A stretch of 50,100 nucleotides of DNA, from the NCBI GenBank assembly GCA_947631405.1, contig CANRLC010000012.1, positions 1 to 50,100 of the forward strand, read 5' to 3'. The notes beneath the pieces were generated by a model that saw only the letters and a program-made list of their open reading frames with translations, was not told where the DNA came from and did no database searches. Origin of the DNA: an uncultured Clostridia bacterium. Lineage in GTDB: Bacteria > Bacillota > Clostridia > Christensenellales > Aristaeellaceae. Each line of letters starts with the position of its first letter. The first letter of the stretch is position 1. This document shows positions 1,261 to 8,661 of this stretch, piece after piece. The position numbers and the translations under genes were made by a program.

Positions 1261-2604
1261 TTAGGCTCTTTTTCGTCCCTCGTTCCAGAGCGCGTCGGCG
1301 GTCGGCTTCCAGCGCTCGGCGTAGGGCGTCGTCTTGTCGCAGAGGTGATCGACGCTCTCCGGGCTTTGGTAGTCCGTGTTCACCGCGCCCGTCTCCTTCA
1401 CCATCCTGCGCAGGCACTCGGGGTTTTCGAGCATCGGGCAGGGGCGCAGCATGTTGCCGTTGAAGGGCTGCTCGTCGTGATAGGCCATGAAGATCGGGCT
1501 TTTGAGCGCGTCCAGCAGCGTGCAGTCGTGGATGTTGACGTTTGAATAGTGGATGAACACGCAAGGCTCCACGTCGCCCTTGGCGTTGATGTGCAGGTAG
1601 TTGCGCCCGCCCGCGATGCAGCCGCCGACGTACTCGGCGTCGTTTTGGAAGTCCAGCGTGAAGATCGGCTTGCTGCTCCTAAACGCGCGGATGCGGCGGT
1701 AGACCTCCGCGCGCTGCTCGGGCGCGGGCAGCAGCTCGGGCGCGGCGTCGTTGCCGACCGGCATGTAGTGGAAGAACCACGCGAAGAGCGCGCCGCTGTC
1801 CACCATGTAATCGAAGAACGCCTCGCTGGTGACATCCTCAAAGTTGCGGCTCGTGTAGCAGGTGGAGATGCCGAAGGGCAGGCGGTGCGCCTTGAGCAGC
1901 GCCATCGCATCCTTCACCTTTCCAAAGGCTCCCTCGCCCCGGCGGGAGTCGTTCGCCTCCTCGAAGCCCTCCAGCGAGATCGCGGGCACGAAGTTGCCCA
2001 CGCGCAGCATCTCGTTGCAGAAGGCCTCGTCGATGAGCGTGCCGTTGGTAAAGGAGAGGAACTCGCAGTCGGGGTGTGCCTCGCACAGCCGGATGAGATC
2101 CGCCTTGCGCACCAGCGGCTCGCCGCCGGTGTAGATGTACATGTAGACGCCCAGCTCCTTGCCCTGCCGGATGATCGAGTCGATGTCCTCGTAGGACAGG
2201 TTGAGCAGGTGGCCGTACTCCGCCGCCCAGCAGCCGGTGCAGTGCATGTTGCAGGCGGACGTCGGGTCGAGCAGGATCGCCCACGGCACGTTGCAGCCCT
2301 CGCGTTCCTTGGCCTCGTTCTGGATGGCGCTGCCCTTGAGGCTCGCGTTGAACAGGAAATTCTGGAAGAACGCGCGGCGCACATTGGGGGATAGCTCGTA
2401 GAGCTTGAGGATGAGCTGATACCAGTTGTTCTTCTTCTCAATGACCTCGCGCACGGCGCTGCGCTGCGAGGCGTACCAGTCCGCCGGGGAGAAGCGGTCG
2501 ACCAGCGCCATCAGCTTGGGCAGGTTCTCCTCCGGATTGCCTTCGACGTATTTGAGGGCCTGCTTGATCGCGAAGCCCTGCATCTGTTCCTTGATGCTTT
2601 CCAT
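1261..2604 (-). CDS. Radical SAM protein with cysteine-rich C-terminal region
   Basis: A 447-residue protein with the radical SAM cluster motif CxxxCxxC at C118, C122 and C125 (CNMHCTGC), which binds the 4Fe-4S cluster that cleaves S-adenosylmethionine. A GGEP segment (YTGGEPLVRK) follows. The C-terminus has further cysteines (GGCIAGG, EPCVF, RPCPMLENPEC) that may hold an auxiliary cluster, as in SPASM-like proteins. About 100 residues precede the core. I chose the ATG at 2604 because GGAGGGAAAGG lies just upstream; a longer frame to 2679 lacks such support. It is divergent from a TetR regulator, a plausible controller. The substrate cannot be named from the sequence. Confidence 0.85.
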   Translation of the reverse strand: MESIKEQMQGFAIKQALKYVEGNPEENLPKLMALVDRFSPADWYASQRSAVREVIEKKNNWYQLILKLYELSPNVRRAFFQNFLFNASLKGSAIQNEAKEREGCNVPWAILLDPTSACNMHCTGCWAAEYGHLLNLSYEDIDSIIRQGKELGVYMYIYTGGEPLVRKADLIRLCEAHPDCEFLSFTNGTLIDEAFCNEMLRVGNFVPAISLEGFEEANDSRRGEGAFGKVKDAMALLKAHRLPFGISTCYTSRNFEDVTSEAFFDYMVDSGALFAWFFHYMPVGNDAAPELLPAPEQRAEVYRRIRAFRSSKPIFTLDFQNDAEYVGGCIAGGRNYLHINAKGDVEPCVFIHYSNVNIHDCTLLDALKSPIFMAYHDEQPFNGNMLRPCPMLENPECLRRMVKETGAVNTDYQSPESVDHLCDKTTPYAERWKPTADALWNEGRKRA

Positions 2605-2650
2605 AGCCTTTCCCTCCGTGCATTTTGTAGCGGCTCGCGCCGCCGTGGGC

Positions 2651-2679
2651 ATTATACGGCGCGCCGGGCGGGCGGACAA
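2651..2679 (-). promoter_or_regulatory. Promoter of the radical SAM gene
   Basis: On the minus strand: TTGTCC (2674-2679), 17 bp, TATAAT (2651-2656), about 47 nt before the ATG. Confidence 0.7.
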
Positions 2680-2809: not shown

Positions 2810-3388
2810 ATGGCGTCTTTCACCCGGGAGGCCATCATCCGCTCGTTTTTAAGGCTCTTGGACGAGCGGCCCTTAAACAAGATCACCGTCCGGGACATCG
2901 TCGAGGACTGCGGCGTCAACCGAAACACGTTCTACTATCACTTCGAGGGCGGCATCCCGGCGCTGGTGGAAGCGGTCTCCAAGGGGGAGATCGACCGGCT
3001 CCTCGCGCAAAACGAGCGCATCTCCTCGATGAGCGAGGCGCTCGACGTGGCGACGGCGTTCATCTGCCGGCACCGGCGCGCGGTGCTGCACCTGTACAAT
3101 TCCTCCAACCGCGACATCTACGAGCGCTACCTGATGGAGATCACGCGCTACACCGCGCGCCGCTACTTCGATACGGCCTTTCCAGACGCCGATCTCCTCG
3201 AGGGCGACCTAGAGATCGTCGTGCTCGCCTACGCCAGCGAGAGCTACGGGCTGATCGTCGAGTGGCTCAACCGTTCGCTGGACGAGGGATTCCGCGCGAC
3301 GCTCCGCCGCCTGTGCGAATTGCGCGCCGGAACGATCGAGACGATGATTCATCGCAGCGCGCAGGACAGGGAAAAGCAGGCAAACTAA
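2810..3388 (+). CDS. TetR/AcrR family transcriptional regulator
   Basis: A 192-residue regulator. The N-terminal 50 residues form the TetR helix-turn-helix: TREAIIRSFLRLL, then ITVRDIVEDCGVNRNTFYYHF, the last part being the family's recognition helix. The rest is an all-helical ligand/dimer domain. The ATG at 2810 follows AAGGAGG at a good distance; a longer frame starting at 2726 would run through the promoter. It probably controls the divergent radical SAM gene and itself, but no operator palindrome is obvious. The stop codon is where the dispersed repeat copy at 3388 begins. Confidence 0.88.
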   Translation: MASFTREAIIRSFLRLLDERPLNKITVRDIVEDCGVNRNTFYYHFEGGIPALVEAVSKGEIDRLLAQNERISSMSEALDVATAFICRHRRAVLHLYNSSNRDIYERYLMEITRYTARRYFDTAFPDADLLEGDLEIVVLAYASESYGLIVEWLNRSLDEGFRATLRRLCELRAGTIETMIHRSAQDREKQAN

Positions 3389-3752
3389 TACTATTCGCAA
3401 AACAAATTATCGATCATTCTGTCATTGGATTATGCCGAGCAAGCATCAGCGGAATAACGCAACTTTTCACGATCAACCCGCCCGGGATCGCTTCGCTTCC
3501 GGGCTGCCTTGGCAATCGCTTCGCGATTTGGGGTACGTTGGGGCTACCATGGGGAACGGTCACTGTCGGGGCGGTGACTGTATAAGTCTTTGTAGCGCTC
3601 GCCCGGGGAACTCGCATAGTCGCGAGCTACGCTCGCTCCTTGCGATTCCCCGCGTTCCGCCTCGCTGTTTCGGCCACTGGCCGCGCTCGGCTCCAGCGCC
3701 AGACCCCTACTTGTGCTTCGCACCATATGAAAGCTTTATCTGAGGGAAGTAT
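3388..3752 (+). repeat. Dispersed hairpin-rich element, copy A (365 bp, variant interior)
   Basis: The left part matches copies at 8455-8661 (inverted) and 29374-29620: ATACTATT start, then CCCGCCCGGGATCGCTTCGC, AATCGCTTCGCGATTTGGGG and GTACGTTGGGGCTACC. The right end (TGTGCTTCGCACCATATGA to AAGTAT) matches copy C. The interior from about 3548 to 3712 is different and longer than in B and C. Terminal inverted repeats are ATACTATTCGCA against ATACTTCCCTCA. No gene is seen in it. Confidence 0.85.
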
Positions 3753-3777
3753 AAAAGCGGGGCCTCCCCCGCTTTTT
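3753..3777. terminator. Bidirectional terminator between tetR and the sirtuin gene
   Basis: AAAAGCGGGG / CCCCGCTTTT stem with a short loop and T-runs on both strands; it fits the convergent genes on either side. Confidence 0.85.
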
Positions 3778-4641
3778 CTATTCCTTCTCTTCCCTCAGTG
3801 CCGCGATCGCTTCCCCGATGTCCGCATCGATGCACACGGCGCGCGGCGCGATCTCGGGCGGGCAGACGGCCTCGCCCCGATTGACGCACGCGTAGAGCGC
3901 GCGCGGGTTTTCCGCCGTCATCCGCCAGAACGGATACTTGATGATCGAGGGCGTGTTGTAGCCGACGCCCAGCTCGAGGAAGAGCACGCGCATGCCCTCA
4001 TGCGCGCGCAGGAACGCGCCGTAGCGCGCGGCGGCGCGATGCCAGCCCTCGTCCTCGACGAACGTGTCGTCGCTGCGCAGGTTCATCGCCATCGGCCGGC
4101 CGCAGCGCGGGCAGACGGGCAGCAGCTCCGTGGGCACGCGCAGGCCGCGCTGGCGCTCCGCCATCCGGCGCACGGCCTCCTCGTTGTCGTAGGTCGCCAT
4201 GTGGCAGGGCAAGCTGCACTGGAATAGCCCGTAGTCGCCCTGCGTGTAAAACAGCCGCGCCTTGTCAAAGCCCGCCTTTTGAAAGCAGTGATCGACGTTC
4301 GTGGTGAGGACGAAATAGTCCTTGTCTCGCACCAGCGACAGCAGCTCGTCGTAGACCGGCTTCGGCGCATCCATGTAGCGGTTGATGAAAATATACCGGC
4401 TCCAGTACGCCCAGAACTCCTCCGGCGTGGGATACGGATAAAACCCTCCGGAGTACATGTCCGAAAAGCCGTACTTGTCGGCGAAGTCGGCAAAATGCCG
4501 CCTAAACCGCTCCCCGGCATAGGTAAAGCCCGCCGCGGTGGACAGCCCAGCGCCCGCGCCGATCACCACGGCGTCGCAGCGCGAGAGCGCCTCCCGCAGC
4601 CGTCTAATGTCATCCGAGCAGCGCCCGGTAGATGCTTTCAT
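3778..4641 (-). CDS. SirTM-type sirtuin (Sir2 family, macrodomain-linked)
   Basis: A 287-residue Sir2-family protein. The NAD-binding GAGAGLSTAAGF is at residues 28-39, TTNVDH at 113-118, and four zinc cysteines are C142, C146, C177 and C180 (CSLPC, CPRC). Where deacetylating sirtuins have the catalytic His, this protein reads YTQGDYG (Gln134), as in class M sirtuins. In Staphylococcus and Streptococcus these are protein ADP-ribosyltransferases that modify a lipoylated GcvH-like protein and are encoded next to a macrodomain hydrolase, as here. The start overlaps the macrodomain gene by about 30 bases; I took the ATG at 4641, preceded by AAGG, while ATGs at 4647 and 4659 are possible. It is the last gene of the RiPP operon. 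No GcvH-L or lipoate ligase is nearby, so the substrate is open. Confidence 0.88.
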   Translation of the reverse strand: MKASTGRCSDDIRRLREALSRCDAVVIGAGAGLSTAAGFTYAGERFRRHFADFADKYGFSDMYSGGFYPYPTPEEFWAYWSRYIFINRYMDAPKPVYDELLSLVRDKDYFVLTTNVDHCFQKAGFDKARLFYTQGDYGLFQCSLPCHMATYDNEEAVRRMAERQRGLRVPTELLPVCPRCGRPMAMNLRSDDTFVEDEGWHRAAARYGAFLRAHEGMRVLFLELGVGYNTPSIIKYPFWRMTAENPRALYACVNRGEAVCPPEIAPRAVCIDADIGEAIAALREEKE

Positions 4642-5371
4642 CGGCATCCTTGAAGACACAGAAGATCACCTCCGTCTCGCCCCGGTGCCTGCGCACCGTG
4701 TCCACGGCGATTCTCGCGGCCTCCTCGTTCGGGAAGCGGAACTCCCCGGTGGAGATGCAGCAGAACGCCACGCTTTGTATCCCGCTTTGCTGCGCCAGCT
4801 GAAGGCAGGCGCGGTAGCAGGAGGCGAGTCCTTCCCGCTCCCTTTGCGTCACAGGGTCGCTTGCGATGGGGCCGACGGTGTGCAGGACGTAGCGGCAGGG
4901 CAGGTTGTAGGCGGGCGTGAGCTTCGCGCCGCCCGGCTCCTCCTCATGGCCCTGCTCTTCCATGAGCCTTGCGCAGGCCAGCCGAAGCTGCACCCCGGCA
5001 TAGGTGTGAATCGCGTTGTCGATGCAGCGGTGGCAGGGGATGTAGCAGCCCGTCAGGCCGCCGTTTGCGGCGTTGACGATGGCGTCGCAGCGCAGCGTCG
5101 TGATGTCTCCCCGCCAGAGCTTGATTCCCGGCTCGATGGGCGTCAGGTTTGCGGCGTCCGTGACGCCCTTGCGCGCCGCCTCCTCGCGCAGGTATGCGTC
5201 CTGCACGGAGAGGAAGTCCTCGCCGATGGGGCGCGGCGGGCGCACGTTCATCAGGGAGCGGAGCAGCTTTTTCTGTTCCGCCTCGCCGGAAGGAATCTGC
5301 AAATCCCGATACCGGGACTCCTCGGCGATCAGCGCTCGAACGAGGAATTCTCGTCTTTCCCTCTGTGTCAT
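4610..5371 (-). CDS. Zinc-type macrodomain protein, ADP-ribosyl hydrolase
   Basis: A 253-residue protein with an N-terminal helical extension (about 1-75) and a macrodomain from about 80. VNAANGGLTG (residues 99-108) is the ADP-ribose binding loop, followed by a Cys/His stretch, CYIPCHRCIDNAIH (109-122), typical of the zinc-containing macrodomains found with SirTM sirtuins. These remove ADP-ribose from the protein modified by the partner sirtuin. The pairing with the downstream sirtuin gene, with overlapping ends, fits a write/erase pair. The ATG at 5371 follows AGAGGATAAC, and the stop codon of the upstream gene is 1 base away, so translation is probably coupled. Confidence 0.9.
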   Translation of the reverse strand: MTQRERREFLVRALIAEESRYRDLQIPSGEAEQKKLLRSLMNVRPPRPIGEDFLSVQDAYLREEAARKGVTDAANLTPIEPGIKLWRGDITTLRCDAIVNAANGGLTGCYIPCHRCIDNAIHTYAGVQLRLACARLMEEQGHEEEPGGAKLTPAYNLPCRYVLHTVGPIASDPVTQREREGLASCYRACLQLAQQSGIQSVAFCCISTGEFRFPNEEAARIAVDTVRRHRGETEVIFCVFKDADESIYRALLG

Positions 5372-5372
5372 G

Positions 5373-5990
5373 TTATCCTCTCTTTTCTATCGCCTTTGCC
5401 GGGCAGACCGCAAAGCAATTCCCACAATGCAGGCAATGGCTCTGCACAACGCGGTAGGGCTTTCCCGGCTCGATGCACTGCTGCGGACAATTTTTGAGGC
5501 ACTGGCCGCAGCCGATACAGCGATCAAGAATGACGTATCCCTTTTGCGTGGGATTTCCCGCGCCAATGGCGTAGCTCTCCCTGAAAATCGGATTGACGCC
5601 GAGATTGAAATACTCGATCTCCGCATCCCTGATCTCAAAGACGATCCCCGCCAGCTTTCGGGTGTCGCCGGGATAGATGTTGGAGAGGTATGGCTGCTCT
5701 GCAAAGATCGTGTCGATCCACTTCTCTTGCTCGATCTCCGGTACGGGAACCGCCTTTGCGGACAGGCGGATCATCTCCTTATACTTGGTATAGCCGAGCG
5801 CCTGTACGCGCCCGTCGCGCAGGAGTTCCTCGCAGAAAGCCTTCCCCTTTGCGGTAAAGAAGATCATCCTATCCGGCTCGTAGTGGATGGCGGAGATGTT
5901 GCGGATTTGCGGCGCGCCGTCCTTGTCCACCGTGGCAAAGGCCAACACGCCGACATATTCCAGTTTTTTGAGACAGGTTTGTGCGTCCAT
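5373..5990 (-). CDS. Pyridoxamine-phosphate-oxidase-like FMN barrel fused to a 2x[4Fe-4S] ferredoxin
   Basis: A 205-residue fusion. Residues 1-125 fit the split-barrel flavin fold of the pyridoxamine 5'-phosphate oxidase family (LAFATVDKDGAPQIRNISAI). Residues 158-168 and 186-196 hold two CxxCxxCxxxC motifs (C158, C161, C164, C168; C186, C189, C192, C196), so the protein likely passes electrons between a flavin and ferredoxin-type clusters. The ATG at 5990 follows GGAGG. It sits 17 bp after the nitroreductase gene in the RiPP operon and may be an electron carrier for the maturase or nitroreductase; this role is inference. Confidence 0.85.
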   Translation of the reverse strand: MDAQTCLKKLEYVGVLAFATVDKDGAPQIRNISAIHYEPDRMIFFTAKGKAFCEELLRDGRVQALGYTKYKEMIRLSAKAVPVPEIEQEKWIDTIFAEQPYLSNIYPGDTRKLAGIVFEIRDAEIEYFNLGVNPIFRESYAIGAGNPTQKGYVILDRCIGCGQCLKNCPQQCIEPGKPYRVVQSHCLHCGNCFAVCPAKAIEKRG

Positions 5991-6007
5991 GGATCGATCC
6001 TCCAATG

Positions 6008-6595
6008 TCAAAATCTGAGGATGCGCCCGTCCTTGCGCGGCTTTGGCGTCGGGTGGGCGTCGCCCGCCCGCGGATAGCCGAGCAAAATCTGTGCCACCGC
6101 ATAGTAGTCCGTGCGGATATTCCACCGGCGCAGGATTTCCTGCCCGTAGGGATCGGCAAACGCCGCAAAGCCCTGCCCGACGTAACAGGAACCGACGCCG
6201 AGGGAATCCGCCGTGAGCATCATATTTTCGGCGGCACAGGCGCAGTCCTCGGCGGAAAACAGGAAGTTTTTGGGAGCGAACAACGTAATCACGGTCGGCG
6301 CGTCGTAAAATGCGTTTTGCAGATGGGGATCGTCCGCGATGCTGGGCTGCTCTTTGGAAACATAGCTCGTCGCCGTCGCCATTTGCGGGTGGGAATGGGC
6401 GCGTTTGATTTTCCCCAGCCGCTCGTTTACCGCCCTGTCCTGACTGACCGCAAACAGCACGCCCTGACGCCCGGCCGCGCTGGGCGCATACAGGCCCGCC
6501 TCCAATATCCGCTGCAAAACGCCCTCGTCGATCTGCCTCTCCTCAAACCGCCGGATCGACCGGCGGTGCAGGATCGTCCCTCTACATTCGCTCAT
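6008..6595 (-). CDS. Nitroreductase family FMN oxidoreductase
   Basis: A 195-residue protein of the nitroreductase fold: N-terminal RRSIRRF motif that contacts FMN phosphate, APSAAGRQG around residues 36-44, and a late helix with GVGSCYVG. The family uses FMN and NAD(P)H; some members act on peptide substrates in RiPP pathways (for example azoline oxidation). The start at 6595 overlaps the stop of the radical SAM gene as ATGA, so the two are translationally coupled. This tight link suggests it works on the same peptide or supplies electrons, but the reaction is unknown. Confidence 0.85.
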   Translation of the reverse strand: MSECRGTILHRRSIRRFEERQIDEGVLQRILEAGLYAPSAAGRQGVLFAVSQDRAVNERLGKIKRAHSHPQMATATSYVSKEQPSIADDPHLQNAFYDAPTVITLFAPKNFLFSAEDCACAAENMMLTADSLGVGSCYVGQGFAAFADPYGQEILRRWNIRTDYYAVAQILLGYPRAGDAHPTPKPRKDGRILRF

Positions 6596-7641
6596 TCTAT
6601 CCCACCCCCCTCGATTTCCTTCCAGCATTGCGGGTCTGCGGCGTAAAAGTCTCCGTTTGTCCCCTTCGCCACGGCGGGACAGCCCCGGCACCACGCCTTG
6701 AGTTCGCACTTGCCGCACTTTTCAAATTTGTCGTACTCCCGATATTTCTCCATCTCGCACGCCCAAACGTCGGCCAGCCGGTCGGAAAACACGTTGCCGA
6801 CCTTGCTTCCCGCAACGCGGCGGCAGGCGTACACGTCGCCCGTGGGCAGGATGGTGATGTGGCAGTTGCCGCAGTTGCAGCCGCCGTAAATCATGCCCTC
6901 CTTGGCGTCGGCTGGAATAGTGAAAGCGCCCGTCTCGTACTCGTAGAGCGTCCAGAGATGGTCTTTTTTATTGAAATAGGTCTGGCAGCCCGCCGCCTCA
7001 TAGGCTTTGAATTTTCCGTCGCAGATTTCAAGCAATTCCCGGTACTCCTGCGGCGTCATGGAGGCGTTCAGCTCGCCGCCGCTGGGCACATAGCGGGAGA
7101 AGGCGAATACGTTTGCCCCCGCCGCCACCGCCGCGTCGATGATCCCCGGCACCTCCATGCGGTTTGCCTTCGATACCGTCGTCATGACGACGCTTCGCAT
7201 CCCGGAGCGGTTGATGCAGCCGATCTTCTCCATGGTGCAGTCAAAAGAGCCGGGTTTGCGGAACCAGTCGTGGGTCTCGCGCAGGCCGTCGAGGGAAAGC
7301 TGGTACTTTTCGCATCCGCAATCCCTCATCTTCCGGCACACCGCATCGTCCAGATAAAACGGGTTGCCCATGAGGGTAAACGGGATGCGGCGTTCTTTCA
7401 GCAGCGCCAGCAGCCGCCAGAAATCCGGGTGCAGGATGGGATCGCCGCCCGTGAGATAAAAATAGGGCGAGCGACCATAGCTTTCGCAGAAGTCCAGACA
7501 GTTGCAAACGGTCTCTTCCATCTGCGCCCAGCTCATGGAATCCGGCTTTTTGCACGCGTCACCGGAGTAGATATAGCAGTGCTTACACCGCTGGTCACAC
7601 TCGTCCGTGATGTGCCATTGGAAGGAAAAAGTTCGTTTCAT
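6592..7641 (-). CDS. Radical SAM/SPASM maturase of the ACGX-repeat peptide system
   Basis: A 349-residue radical SAM enzyme. C15, C19 and C22 form CxxxCxxC (CDQRCKHC), followed by TGGDP at the SAM-binding site. The C-terminal SPASM region has many cysteines (GGCNCGNCHI, VYACRR, KCGKCELKAWCRGC, PQCW) expected to bind auxiliary 4Fe-4S clusters. Proteins of this architecture modify ribosomal peptides. The gene directly upstream encodes a peptide with six ACGX motifs, the arrangement named the ACGX system in protein family databases; the chemistry is not described as far as I know. The ATG at 7641 follows GGAGCTTTAGG. It lies 89 bp after the peptide gene, with a strong hairpin between. Confidence 0.9.
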   Translation of the reverse strand: MKRTFSFQWHITDECDQRCKHCYIYSGDACKKPDSMSWAQMEETVCNCLDFCESYGRSPYFYLTGGDPILHPDFWRLLALLKERRIPFTLMGNPFYLDDAVCRKMRDCGCEKYQLSLDGLRETHDWFRKPGSFDCTMEKIGCINRSGMRSVVMTTVSKANRMEVPGIIDAAVAAGANVFAFSRYVPSGGELNASMTPQEYRELLEICDGKFKAYEAAGCQTYFNKKDHLWTLYEYETGAFTIPADAKEGMIYGGCNCGNCHITILPTGDVYACRRVAGSKVGNVFSDRLADVWACEMEKYREYDKFEKCGKCELKAWCRGCPAVAKGTNGDFYAADPQCWKEIEGGGIE

Positions 7642-7691
7642 CCTAAAGCTCCGCTCGATATGCCATCGGTTTTGACCGAGAGCGATCGCGT

Positions 7692-7721
7692 GTTCCCGGC
7701 GGGAGCAGGCCCGCCGGGAAC
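7692..7721 (-). promoter_or_regulatory. Strong hairpin between precursor and maturase genes (attenuator or mRNA-end stabiliser)
   Basis: GTTCCCGGCGGG (7692-7703) pairs perfectly with CCCGCCGGGAAC (7710-7721) around a 6-nt loop. No T-run follows on the minus strand, so full termination is unlikely. A hairpin here could give more peptide than enzyme by partial read-through or by protecting the short mRNA. Confidence 0.7.
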
Positions 7722-7730
7722 GGTAGGTCG

Positions 7731-7946
7731 TCAATTCTTGTCGCCGGCTCCGCAGGCCGTGCCGCACGCCGCGGGCTTTTCCTCCGGCTTGCCGGCGGCG
7801 CCGCAGGCGGTGGGCGCCTCGGCGGGCTTGTCTGCCGCGCCGCAGGCGGCGGGGGTCTTCTCGGGCTTGTCTGCCGCGCCGCAAGCCGCGCCACAGGCGG
7901 AAGCCGCCTTGTCCCCGGCCCATTCGGCGAGATGAGAGAGCGCCAT
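7731..7946 (-). CDS. ACGX-repeat RiPP precursor peptide
   Basis: A 71-residue peptide: a short leader of about 15 residues (MALSHLAEWAGDKAA) and a repeat region with six ACGX motifs. Cysteines are at 18, 22, 35, 48, 61 and 65, a symmetrical 4-13-13-13-4 spacing. The 13-residue units have the form CGAADKPxxxPxA, rich in Ala, Lys, Pro and Glu. It has no catalytic domain and no membrane segment. The ATG at 7946 follows AAAGGAGG at good spacing; an upstream in-frame ATG at 8033 would run through the promoter. It is the first gene of the operon, which fits a precursor made in excess. The repeated Cys-Gly units are the likely modification sites; the final product is unknown. Confidence 0.9.
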   Translation of the reverse strand: MALSHLAEWAGDKAASACGAACGAADKPEKTPAACGAADKPAEAPTACGAAGKPEEKPAACGTACGAGDKN

Positions 7947-7997: not shown

Positions 7998-8025
7998 ATT
8001 GTACGGATTCTTCTCCCTCGCACAA
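7998..8025 (-). promoter_or_regulatory. Promoter of the ACGX operon
   Basis: On the minus strand: TTGTGC (8020-8025), 16 bp, TACAAT (7998-8003), giving a leader of about 45 nt. The direct repeats at 8027-8057 lie immediately upstream. Confidence 0.6.
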
Positions 8026-8026
8026 G

Positions 8027-8057
8027 TACGCACCTTTCGGGGAGGTTACGCACCTTT
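8027..8057. promoter_or_regulatory. Direct repeats, candidate HxlR operator
   Basis: TACGCACCTTT occurs at 8027-8037 and 8047-8057, 20 bp apart (about two helix turns), between the two divergent promoters. The place and spacing suit a dimeric regulator; assignment to the adjacent HxlR protein is inference. Confidence 0.55.
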
Positions 8058-8066
8058 TTGTAACTA

Positions 8067-8132: not shown

Positions 8133-8504
8133 ATGAAAACGAAGGCCGAGCTTCTTCCCCAATGCCCCGTCGCGACGACGGTTCAGCTCATCGGGAACAA
8201 GTGGAAGCTCCTCATCATCCGGAACCTGTCCGCCCGCCCGTGGCGCTTTAACGAGCTGCAGCGGGATCTGGACGGCATCAGCCAGAAGGTGCTCACGGAC
8301 AGCCTGCGCTCCATGGAGGCGGACGGGCTGATCACCCGAACCGTCTATCCCGAGGTGCCGCCGCGGGTGGAATACGCGCTCTCGGAGCTAGGCGAATCCC
8401 TGAGGCCGATTTTGGACGCCATGAAGGCATGGGGAGAGCGCTATCAGGCGGGGAACAGGATGGGGTCTGGGGACAATGTCCCCAGACAGGGTTTGGGGCG
8501 GTAG
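8133..8504 (+). CDS. HxlR family winged-helix regulator
   Basis: A 123-residue winged-helix regulator. The motif IGNKWKLLIIRNL at about 20-32, the recognition region FNELQRDLDGISQKVLTDSLR and the wing GLITRTVYPEVPPRVEYALS are family hallmarks. Cys11 in LLPQCPVATT sits where YodB/HypR-type members carry a redox-sensing Cys, so it may respond to thiol stress. The ATG at 8133 follows GGAGG. It is divergent from the ACGX operon and is its likely regulator. The last 16 or so codons (from about 8455) and the stop lie inside an inverted copy of the dispersed repeat, so the native C-terminus seems to have been replaced. Confidence 0.88.
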   Translation: MKTKAELLPQCPVATTVQLIGNKWKLLIIRNLSARPWRFNELQRDLDGISQKVLTDSLRSMEADGLITRTVYPEVPPRVEYALSELGESLRPILDAMKAWGERYQAGNRMGSGDNVPRQGLGR

Positions 8505-8661
8505 CCCCAACGTCACCCCAATCGCGAAGCGATTGCCAAATGTAGCCCGGTAGCGAAGCGATCCCGGGCGGGTTGTTCATGAGAAGTGGCGCACTCCCGC
8601 CCTTGCTTGCTCAGTATAACCCCTGACGGAATGGTTCGATCATTTGATTTGAAAATAGCAT
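8455..8661 (-). repeat. Dispersed hairpin-rich element, copy B (inverted, truncated)
   Basis: Read on the minus strand it matches copy C from ATGCTATTTTCAAATCAAA to GTCTGGGGAC/GTCCCCAGAC and ACCCCATCCTGT, then stops: the TGTGCTTCGCACC end is missing. The truncated end lies inside the hxlR reading frame. Hairpins include TTGGGGC/GCCCCAA and GTCTGGGGAC/GTCCCCAGAC. Confidence 0.88.

Follow-up and report, generated by a model that had tools for sequence, protein, structure and literature searches.

The closest described relatives of the locus treated here are the extended operons of class M sirtuins (SirTM) of Staphylococcaceae and Lactobacillales, in which the carrier protein GcvH-L, the ligase LplA2, flavoenzymes, a Zn-macrodomain protein (Zn-Macro) and SirTM are encoded together. 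The carrier is lipoylated by an operon enzyme, and SirTM and Zn-Macro act as a switch on it; SirTM marks only the lipoylated carrier in that operon, and a redox-scavenging role has been proposed by the authors (PMC4518038 and PMC11490716). A second relevant system is the PapA/PapB ranthipeptides, where the radical S-adenosylmethionine (SAM) enzyme PapB crosslinks Cys to Asp or Glu in CX3D and CX3E motifs, nested arrangement included (PMC9413430). The peptides with ACGX repeats and their radical SAM partner, in turn, are only named as a pair by the NCBI models TIGR04341 and TIGR04340, to which an operon context and a CX3D pattern are added here. On a 50,100-nucleotide stretch from an uncultured Clostridia bacterium (contig CANRLC010000012.1; this whole stretch is the window below), the two ACGX genes share an operon with a nitroreductase, a flavin mononucleotide (FMN)-ferredoxin protein, a macrodomain protein and a sirtuin. 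This is a real and recurrent combination, a variant of the extended SirTM operon, whose description was not found in the literature searched. In the open full-text literature, which leaves out most subscription papers, no paper joined ACGX with radical SAM, or sirtuin with macrodomain, radical SAM and operon; by title, no paper on ribosomally synthesised and post-translationally modified peptides (RiPPs) was found among the "ACGX" matches listed or among the matches to macrodomain and radical S-adenosyl.

The six minus-strand open reading frames (ORFs) at 3778-7946, which the original prediction had placed in a single operon with gaps or overlaps of 89, -4, 17, 1 and -32 nucleotides, were all reproduced with these spacings (Table 1). 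A promoter or terminator break at 5371-5373 was considered and rejected, as none was found and the scan gives no terminator-like site there; its minus-strand matches inside the operon are weak intragenic stems (7371-7359, 5433-5421 and 4417-4399), and the region as a whole holds 10 terminator-like matches as against 6.6 +/- 2.7 in shuffles. Precursor and radical SAM enzyme both score above the cut-offs of the ACGX models; the enzyme has the domains PF04055 and PF13186, and its CX3CX2C and SPASM cysteines were seen by eye. A Pfam scan of the operon and HxlR proteins placed PF00881, PF01243, Fer4 and PF01661 each over the cut-off. The cassette as such is well supported.

A functional link between the SirTM/macrodomain pair and the ACGX genes had been proposed earlier, and the co-occurrence count speaks for it. 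A locus is called linked when a macrodomain or sirtuin gene lies within 6 kb on either side. Seventy-four distinct ACGX loci extend 4.5 kb or more beyond the radical SAM gene, and 48 of them have macrodomain, sirtuin or both at this distance, which rules out chance neighbours. The close set within these 74 was taken from the best 80 of 341 radical SAM matches, so that close relatives weigh heavily in it; 23 of the 80 had less than 4.5 kb after the radical SAM gene, many contigs ending early, and were left out, which gives 57. To these were added distinct loci from genome searches (24 further), ten genome-derived loci that repeated close-set contigs being dropped. In the close set 42/57 loci have a macrodomain or sirtuin gene on the same strand at most 5 kb downstream (both genes in 37), and the pair is upstream in L055; of all 48 linked loci, 44 have the start of the pair on the same strand no more than 2.5 kb downstream, with both genes there in 42. 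The precursor precedes the radical SAM gene on the same strand in all 74 loci, out of the 80 best matches, that have at least 300 nt available there.

The association is also seen at the level of genomes. Ten of the 396 genomes of the order sample, that of the window among them, pass the TIGR04340 cut-off, and SirTM at E <= 1e-30 is present in 9 of these 10 (counted by hand from the table, window's genome included) against 83 of the 386 others (Fisher 1.2e-5). In 11 genomes (the ten and one with a fragment) the ACGX and SirTM genes are adjacent in three; in G155 both are at contig ends, in G340, G067, G111 and G277 they are on different contigs, in G179 they are about 286 kb apart, and two genomes are without a strong SirTM. 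The same cut-off is passed in 16/391 genomes of the class sample and 9/398 of the phylum sample, both counts including the window's genome. SirTM at E <= 1e-30 occurs in 20 of 23 further genomes (one of them below the TIGR04340 cut-off) and adjoins the radical SAM gene in 15. The adjacency spans 10 family codes of the genome samples, the window's genome included.

When 102 SirTM proteins are placed on a tree by a quick method, 10 changes of the label "next to ACGX" are required, compared with a mean of 33.7 in shuffles, none of 500 shuffles being as low, and the starred branches force 6 changes. One starred group of 68 holds 53 of the 56 ACGX-linked rows. L103, L143 and L147 are placed elsewhere, which suggests separate joinings, the position of L103 being unsure because of its very long branch; some of the unlinked rows may carry the wrong label, L152 and L159 being at contig ends. 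The clustering, together with the separate joinings, thus describes a stable but optional pair: the core is made up of the peptide, the radical SAM enzyme, an oxidoreductase and, in most cases, an HxlR regulator, and SirTM and macrodomain are frequently added to it.

Table 1. Features of the operon and its flanks (positions in the window).
Feature	Position	Strand	Remarks
ACGX-repeat precursor peptide	7731..7946	-	71 aa; TIGR04341, 75.2 bits (cut-off 28)
Radical SAM/SPASM enzyme of ACGX system	6592..7641	-	349 aa; TIGR04340, 583 bits (cut-off 400); gap of 89 after precursor
Nitroreductase-family flavoprotein	6008..6595	-	195 aa; PF00881; overlap of 4 with radical SAM gene
FMN split-barrel (PNPOx-like) fused to 2[4Fe-4S] ferredoxin	5373..5990	-	205 aa; gap of 17 after nitroreductase
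Zn-macrodomain protein-ADP-ribose hydrolase (predicted)	4610..5371	-	253 aa; gap of 1 after FMN-ferredoxin
Class M sirtuin (SirTM; predicted)	3778..4641	-	287 aa; overlap of 32 with macrodomain gene
HxlR-family regulator, divergent from operon	8133..8504	+	123 aa; HxlR domain PF01638 matched
Conserved operator-like block AGTTACAAAAAGGTGCGTA...AAAGGTGCGTACTTG	8019..8065	-	core at 8024-8036
Promoter TTGTGC, 16 nt, TACAAT	7998..8025	-	by eye
Near-symmetric terminator-like hairpin, directly after sirtuin stop	3753..3776		listed by scan on + strand only

At E 0.01 Pfam gave no match to the sirtuin, and its NCBIfam matches all stay below the cut-offs; its closest solved relative is SpySirTM (5a3a; 243 bits, alignment over 270 residues). 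N115, Q134 (Gln instead of His), R189 and the motif GVGYNTP (GVGx[NT]TP) match SpySirTM, and the macrodomain neighbour at 4610-5371 is likewise a mark of class M, the catalytic roles of these residues being taken from PMC4518038. The macrodomain protein exceeds the cut-off of the protein-ADP-ribose hydrolase model NF003163 (334 vs 272 bits) and retains the Zn-Macro motifs, namely the Zn loop GCYIPCHRC and DxxxH (GCYIPCHRCIDNAIH, aligned with 8rsi, 5kiv, 8rsl and 8rsm). The operon sirtuin is, from its residues, a predicted class M ADP-ribosyltransferase and the macrodomain protein the predicted eraser.

SirTM and Zn-Macro with their catalytic residues are what the locus shares with the GcvH-L operon (PMC4518038 and PMC11490716); common to both are also an adjoining small protein that is, or in our case would be, modified by an operon enzyme, flavin oxidoreductases and a setting of redox stress, in our case a likely one. 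The carriers differ, here a RiPP precursor with Cys repeats that comes with a radical SAM enzyme, there lipoylated GcvH-L, and so do the flavoenzymes (nitroreductase and FMN-ferredoxin, compared with old yellow enzyme and a luciferase-like monooxygenase); the divergent HxlR gene is a further feature of the ACGX operon. No lipoyl carrier or ligase domain was among the Pfam matches of the seven locus proteins, so the locus is not of the lipoyl type with GcvH-L and LplA2. Among SirTM operons without ACGX, a small cupin protein adjoins HxlR in 8 of 45 loci scanned (L161, L165, L167-L169, L171, L172 and L197), and others hold a PNPOx-like FMN protein, an NAD(P)H-binding protein or DUF5131; all four are further candidate partners or targets of SirTM.

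We tentatively read the locus as an HxlR-controlled thiol- or electrophile-stress operon that could well be a second kind of extended SirTM operon. Its gene set, recurrence, conserved operator-like block and retained catalytic residues are matters of observation; the remaining steps are given here in order of falling confidence. The ACGX peptide would remain inside the cell. The radical SAM/SPASM enzyme would link Cys to the Asp or Glu four residues on, so that in each CX3CX3D pair the first Cys stays a free thiol. The modified peptide may swap electrons with nitroreductase and FMN-ferredoxin, or these two may supply the radical SAM enzyme. SirTM might then ADP-ribosylate the modified peptide and the Zn-macrodomain take the mark off, an off/on switch comparable to that on lipoyl-GcvH-L in Staphylococcus and Streptococcus, with the peptide filling the carrier's place. 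Since a recurrent operon often pairs the peptide with a predicted writer and eraser of ADP-ribose, the peptide is a candidate sirtuin target. It is conceivable, if on balance doubtful, that the modified ACGX peptide is a dedicated SirTM substrate and the first target of SirTM besides GcvH-L; it would then be a redox-active RiPP inside the cell, switched by ADP-ribose reversibly attached to Asp/Glu or free Cys. The operon supplies a short list of candidate SirTM targets. The redox-stress setting of the cassette is likely, and redox or electrophile stress inside the cell is a likely setting for the ACGX family.

The crosslinking step follows from the peptides themselves. Three of the six Cys in the window peptide stand in CX3D (C22, C35 and C65 with D26, D39 and D69), C18 and C61 are in CX3C, and C48 has Gly at +4. 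The repeat is CX3D/CX3CX3D in 93 peptides, all from distinct loci; over their 563 Cys-Gly sites the residue at +4 is Asp in 55%, Cys in 35% and Glu in 6%, and Asp or Glu occupies this position in 342 of the 360 sites without Cys there. CX3[DE] holds at 29/29 sites in eight divergent peptides, chosen by hand, whose spacers are altered or lost, and Lys at +5 stands at 27% in them compared with 55%. The PapA/PapB system likewise combines a radical SAM enzyme with a peptide in which CX3D (or CX3E) motifs recur; the ACGX system differs in that its enzyme falls outside the PapB family, that Cys takes the place of Asp at +4 in about one third of its Cys-Gly sites, and that its crosslink is a predicted one. 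Cys-to-Asp/Glu linkage of the PapB kind is, by this likeness, a good lead, and CX3D thioethers are thereby a concrete prediction for the chemistry of the ACGX family.

At least one oxidoreductase of flavin or MDR type follows the radical SAM gene in all 57 close loci, and in the set of 74 an oxidoreductase is present in 48/48 linked and 23/26 unlinked loci. Its kind varies, being nitroreductase, FMN-ferredoxin, a zinc-type MDR dehydrogenase (24 loci) or a ferredoxin-nitroreductase fusion. A defence system was considered and rejected, PADLOC yielding nothing beyond viperin-like matches of the radical SAM protein, at 31-42 bits. In the metagenome-assembled genome "Lapin-021__bin62" the ACGX radical SAM gene (L063:6766-7815) is split by an in-frame TAG, the other operon genes still being present.

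Sensing of quinones or thiol stress is common among HxlR regulators; YodB is an example of an HxlR/DUF24 redox regulator. The divergent HxlR gene of the window and the operator-like block over the precursor promoter were both absent from the original prediction. A divergent HxlR gene stands upstream in 60 of the 62 close loci with at least 1.2 kb there. RrpB and RrpA are the nearest NCBI models of the window protein, which scores below the cut-offs of both (for RrpB, NF047364, 117.4 vs 175 bits); it resembles these regulators in its HxlR domain and in being encoded divergently from nitroreductase or MDR-type oxidoreductase genes, and ligand or thiol sensing by it is putative. The operator core GTGCGTACTT lies on the operon strand within 1.3 kb upstream of the radical SAM ORF in 73 of 88 distinct ACGX loci; in 66 of the 88 it is preceded by a purine, and the alignment of these sites shows a longer conserved block with a TATAAT-like hexamer after it. 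The first promoter hexamer in the window, TTGTGC, overlaps the operator-like block, the promoter itself having been missed by the terminator/promoter scan. Genome-wide, the operator search gave one exact site, the window's own, and two with one mismatch.

The regulatory sequence was also followed into SirTM-only loci, meaning those with no radical SAM gene within the fetched stretch; the 46 loci were picked non-randomly from the order-sample table, some at contig ends. HxlR is found within 2.5 kb of SirTM or macrodomain in 25 of the 46, and the exact core in five (L153, L160, L175, L177 and L180). A matrix trained on ACGX loci was controlled with 12 mononucleotide shuffles per upstream region: L176, L189, L192 and L195 have a similar site that beats the shuffles, yet no exact core; L165 and L193 beat them with no convincing site, and the core-bearing L153 as a whole does not. 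Cupin-containing SirTM-only loci carry a different conserved upstream sequence (by eye). In genome G340 the ACGX (L144) and SirTM (L153) genes are on separate contigs, each with HxlR and operator core. Since HxlR and core are common to both modules, G340 included, it seems that the two belong to one regulatory circuit in some genomes at least, also where they lie separately.

These last data bear on another explanation, in which a single stress regulon of HxlR type comprises ACGX and SirTM-macrodomain as separate cassettes, brought together by their joint induction, and SirTM acts on an unrelated protein. The HxlR genes and cores of SirTM-only loci and the separate contigs of G340 argue for it, while the same-strand start within 2.5 kb downstream in 44/48 linked loci and the adjacency in 10 family codes argue against it; we consider co-regulation alone rather unlikely. 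Shared HxlR control of a redox-stress response could nevertheless explain part of the link with the peptide left unmodified, and this belongs with several other observations that weigh against a peptide-directed switch under HxlR control. The pair is missing nearby in 26/74 ACGX loci, 12 of them among the 17 more distant ones, and the linked share drops from 43/57 in the close loci to 5/17 outside the 80 best matches. Of the 92 SirTM-bearing genomes in the order sample, 83 have no ACGX enzyme over the cut-off. Outside the close set, 22 distinct ACGX loci offer 1.2 kb or more upstream, and the divergent HxlR gene is present in only 13 of them and missing in 9; 41/46 SirTM-only loci are without the exact core (6 of them with less than 1 kb upstream). 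The radical SAM enzyme reaches only 66.3 bits with the PapB model NF047865 (cut-off 340), SbtM being higher at 155. Finally, the conserved Asp is kept also in loci with no pair nearby (L077, L111, L229, L240 and L245); it is therefore no evidence for ADP-ribosylation and was dropped as a candidate mark.

The FMN-ferredoxin gene adds to this list, as it is found in 13 of the 26 ACGX loci with no pair nearby and so occurs with either half alone. A flavoprotein of the operon, most likely FMN-ferredoxin, could then be the target of SirTM and Zn-Macro and the peptide not ADP-ribosylated at all. The gene is indeed present in 8/46 SirTM-only loci, each time with two ferredoxin motifs (L152 is probably a contig-split ACGX operon). 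Its homologue was, on the other side, not seen nearby in the other 38, eight of the 48 linked loci are also without it, and in the known system SauSirTM modified the carrier only, among the operon proteins tested (PMC4518038). We hold a flavoprotein target to be rather unlikely, but FMN-ferredoxin is a serious candidate and the main rival to the peptide, co-regulation with no direct action coming second.

Radical SAM-modified Cys-rich RiPPs are often secreted, and an exported antimicrobial or signalling ranthipeptide, with SirTM and macrodomain as self-protection, was weighed on that ground. Peptidase_C39 is missing altogether from 26 of the 34 ACGX genomes, that of the window included, and in the other eight it is on contigs without ACGX; export by the standard bacteriocin route through Peptidase_C39 is therefore unlikely and was set aside, the search having covered this exporter type. 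Of the clusters of unannotated ORFs with at least 4 loci, those that lie mainly just downstream on the same strand are oxidoreductases and one unidentified family, and no leader cleavage motif was seen in the peptides by eye. We regard an exported product as very improbable, and keep to the tentative reading of an intracellular peptide in a thiol- or electrophile-stress operon.

Some features around the operon may be added. The hairpin at its end has 10 pairs, its minus-strand version being read by eye. Inverted copies of a dispersed repeat at 3427-3548 and 8500-8622, with arms 80 and 93% complementary, flank the operon and the HxlR gene; the repeat core CCCGGGATCGCTTCGC occurs 86 times in the 2.28 Mb genome and looks like a small mobile or structural element. 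Past the hairpin, a radical SAM-like protein is encoded at 1261-2679 (-), divergent from a TetR-like gene at about 2810-3388 (+), both named by eye. At the window's start, positions 1-393, a unit of 131 nt is present in three head-to-tail copies (100, 96 and 64% identity).

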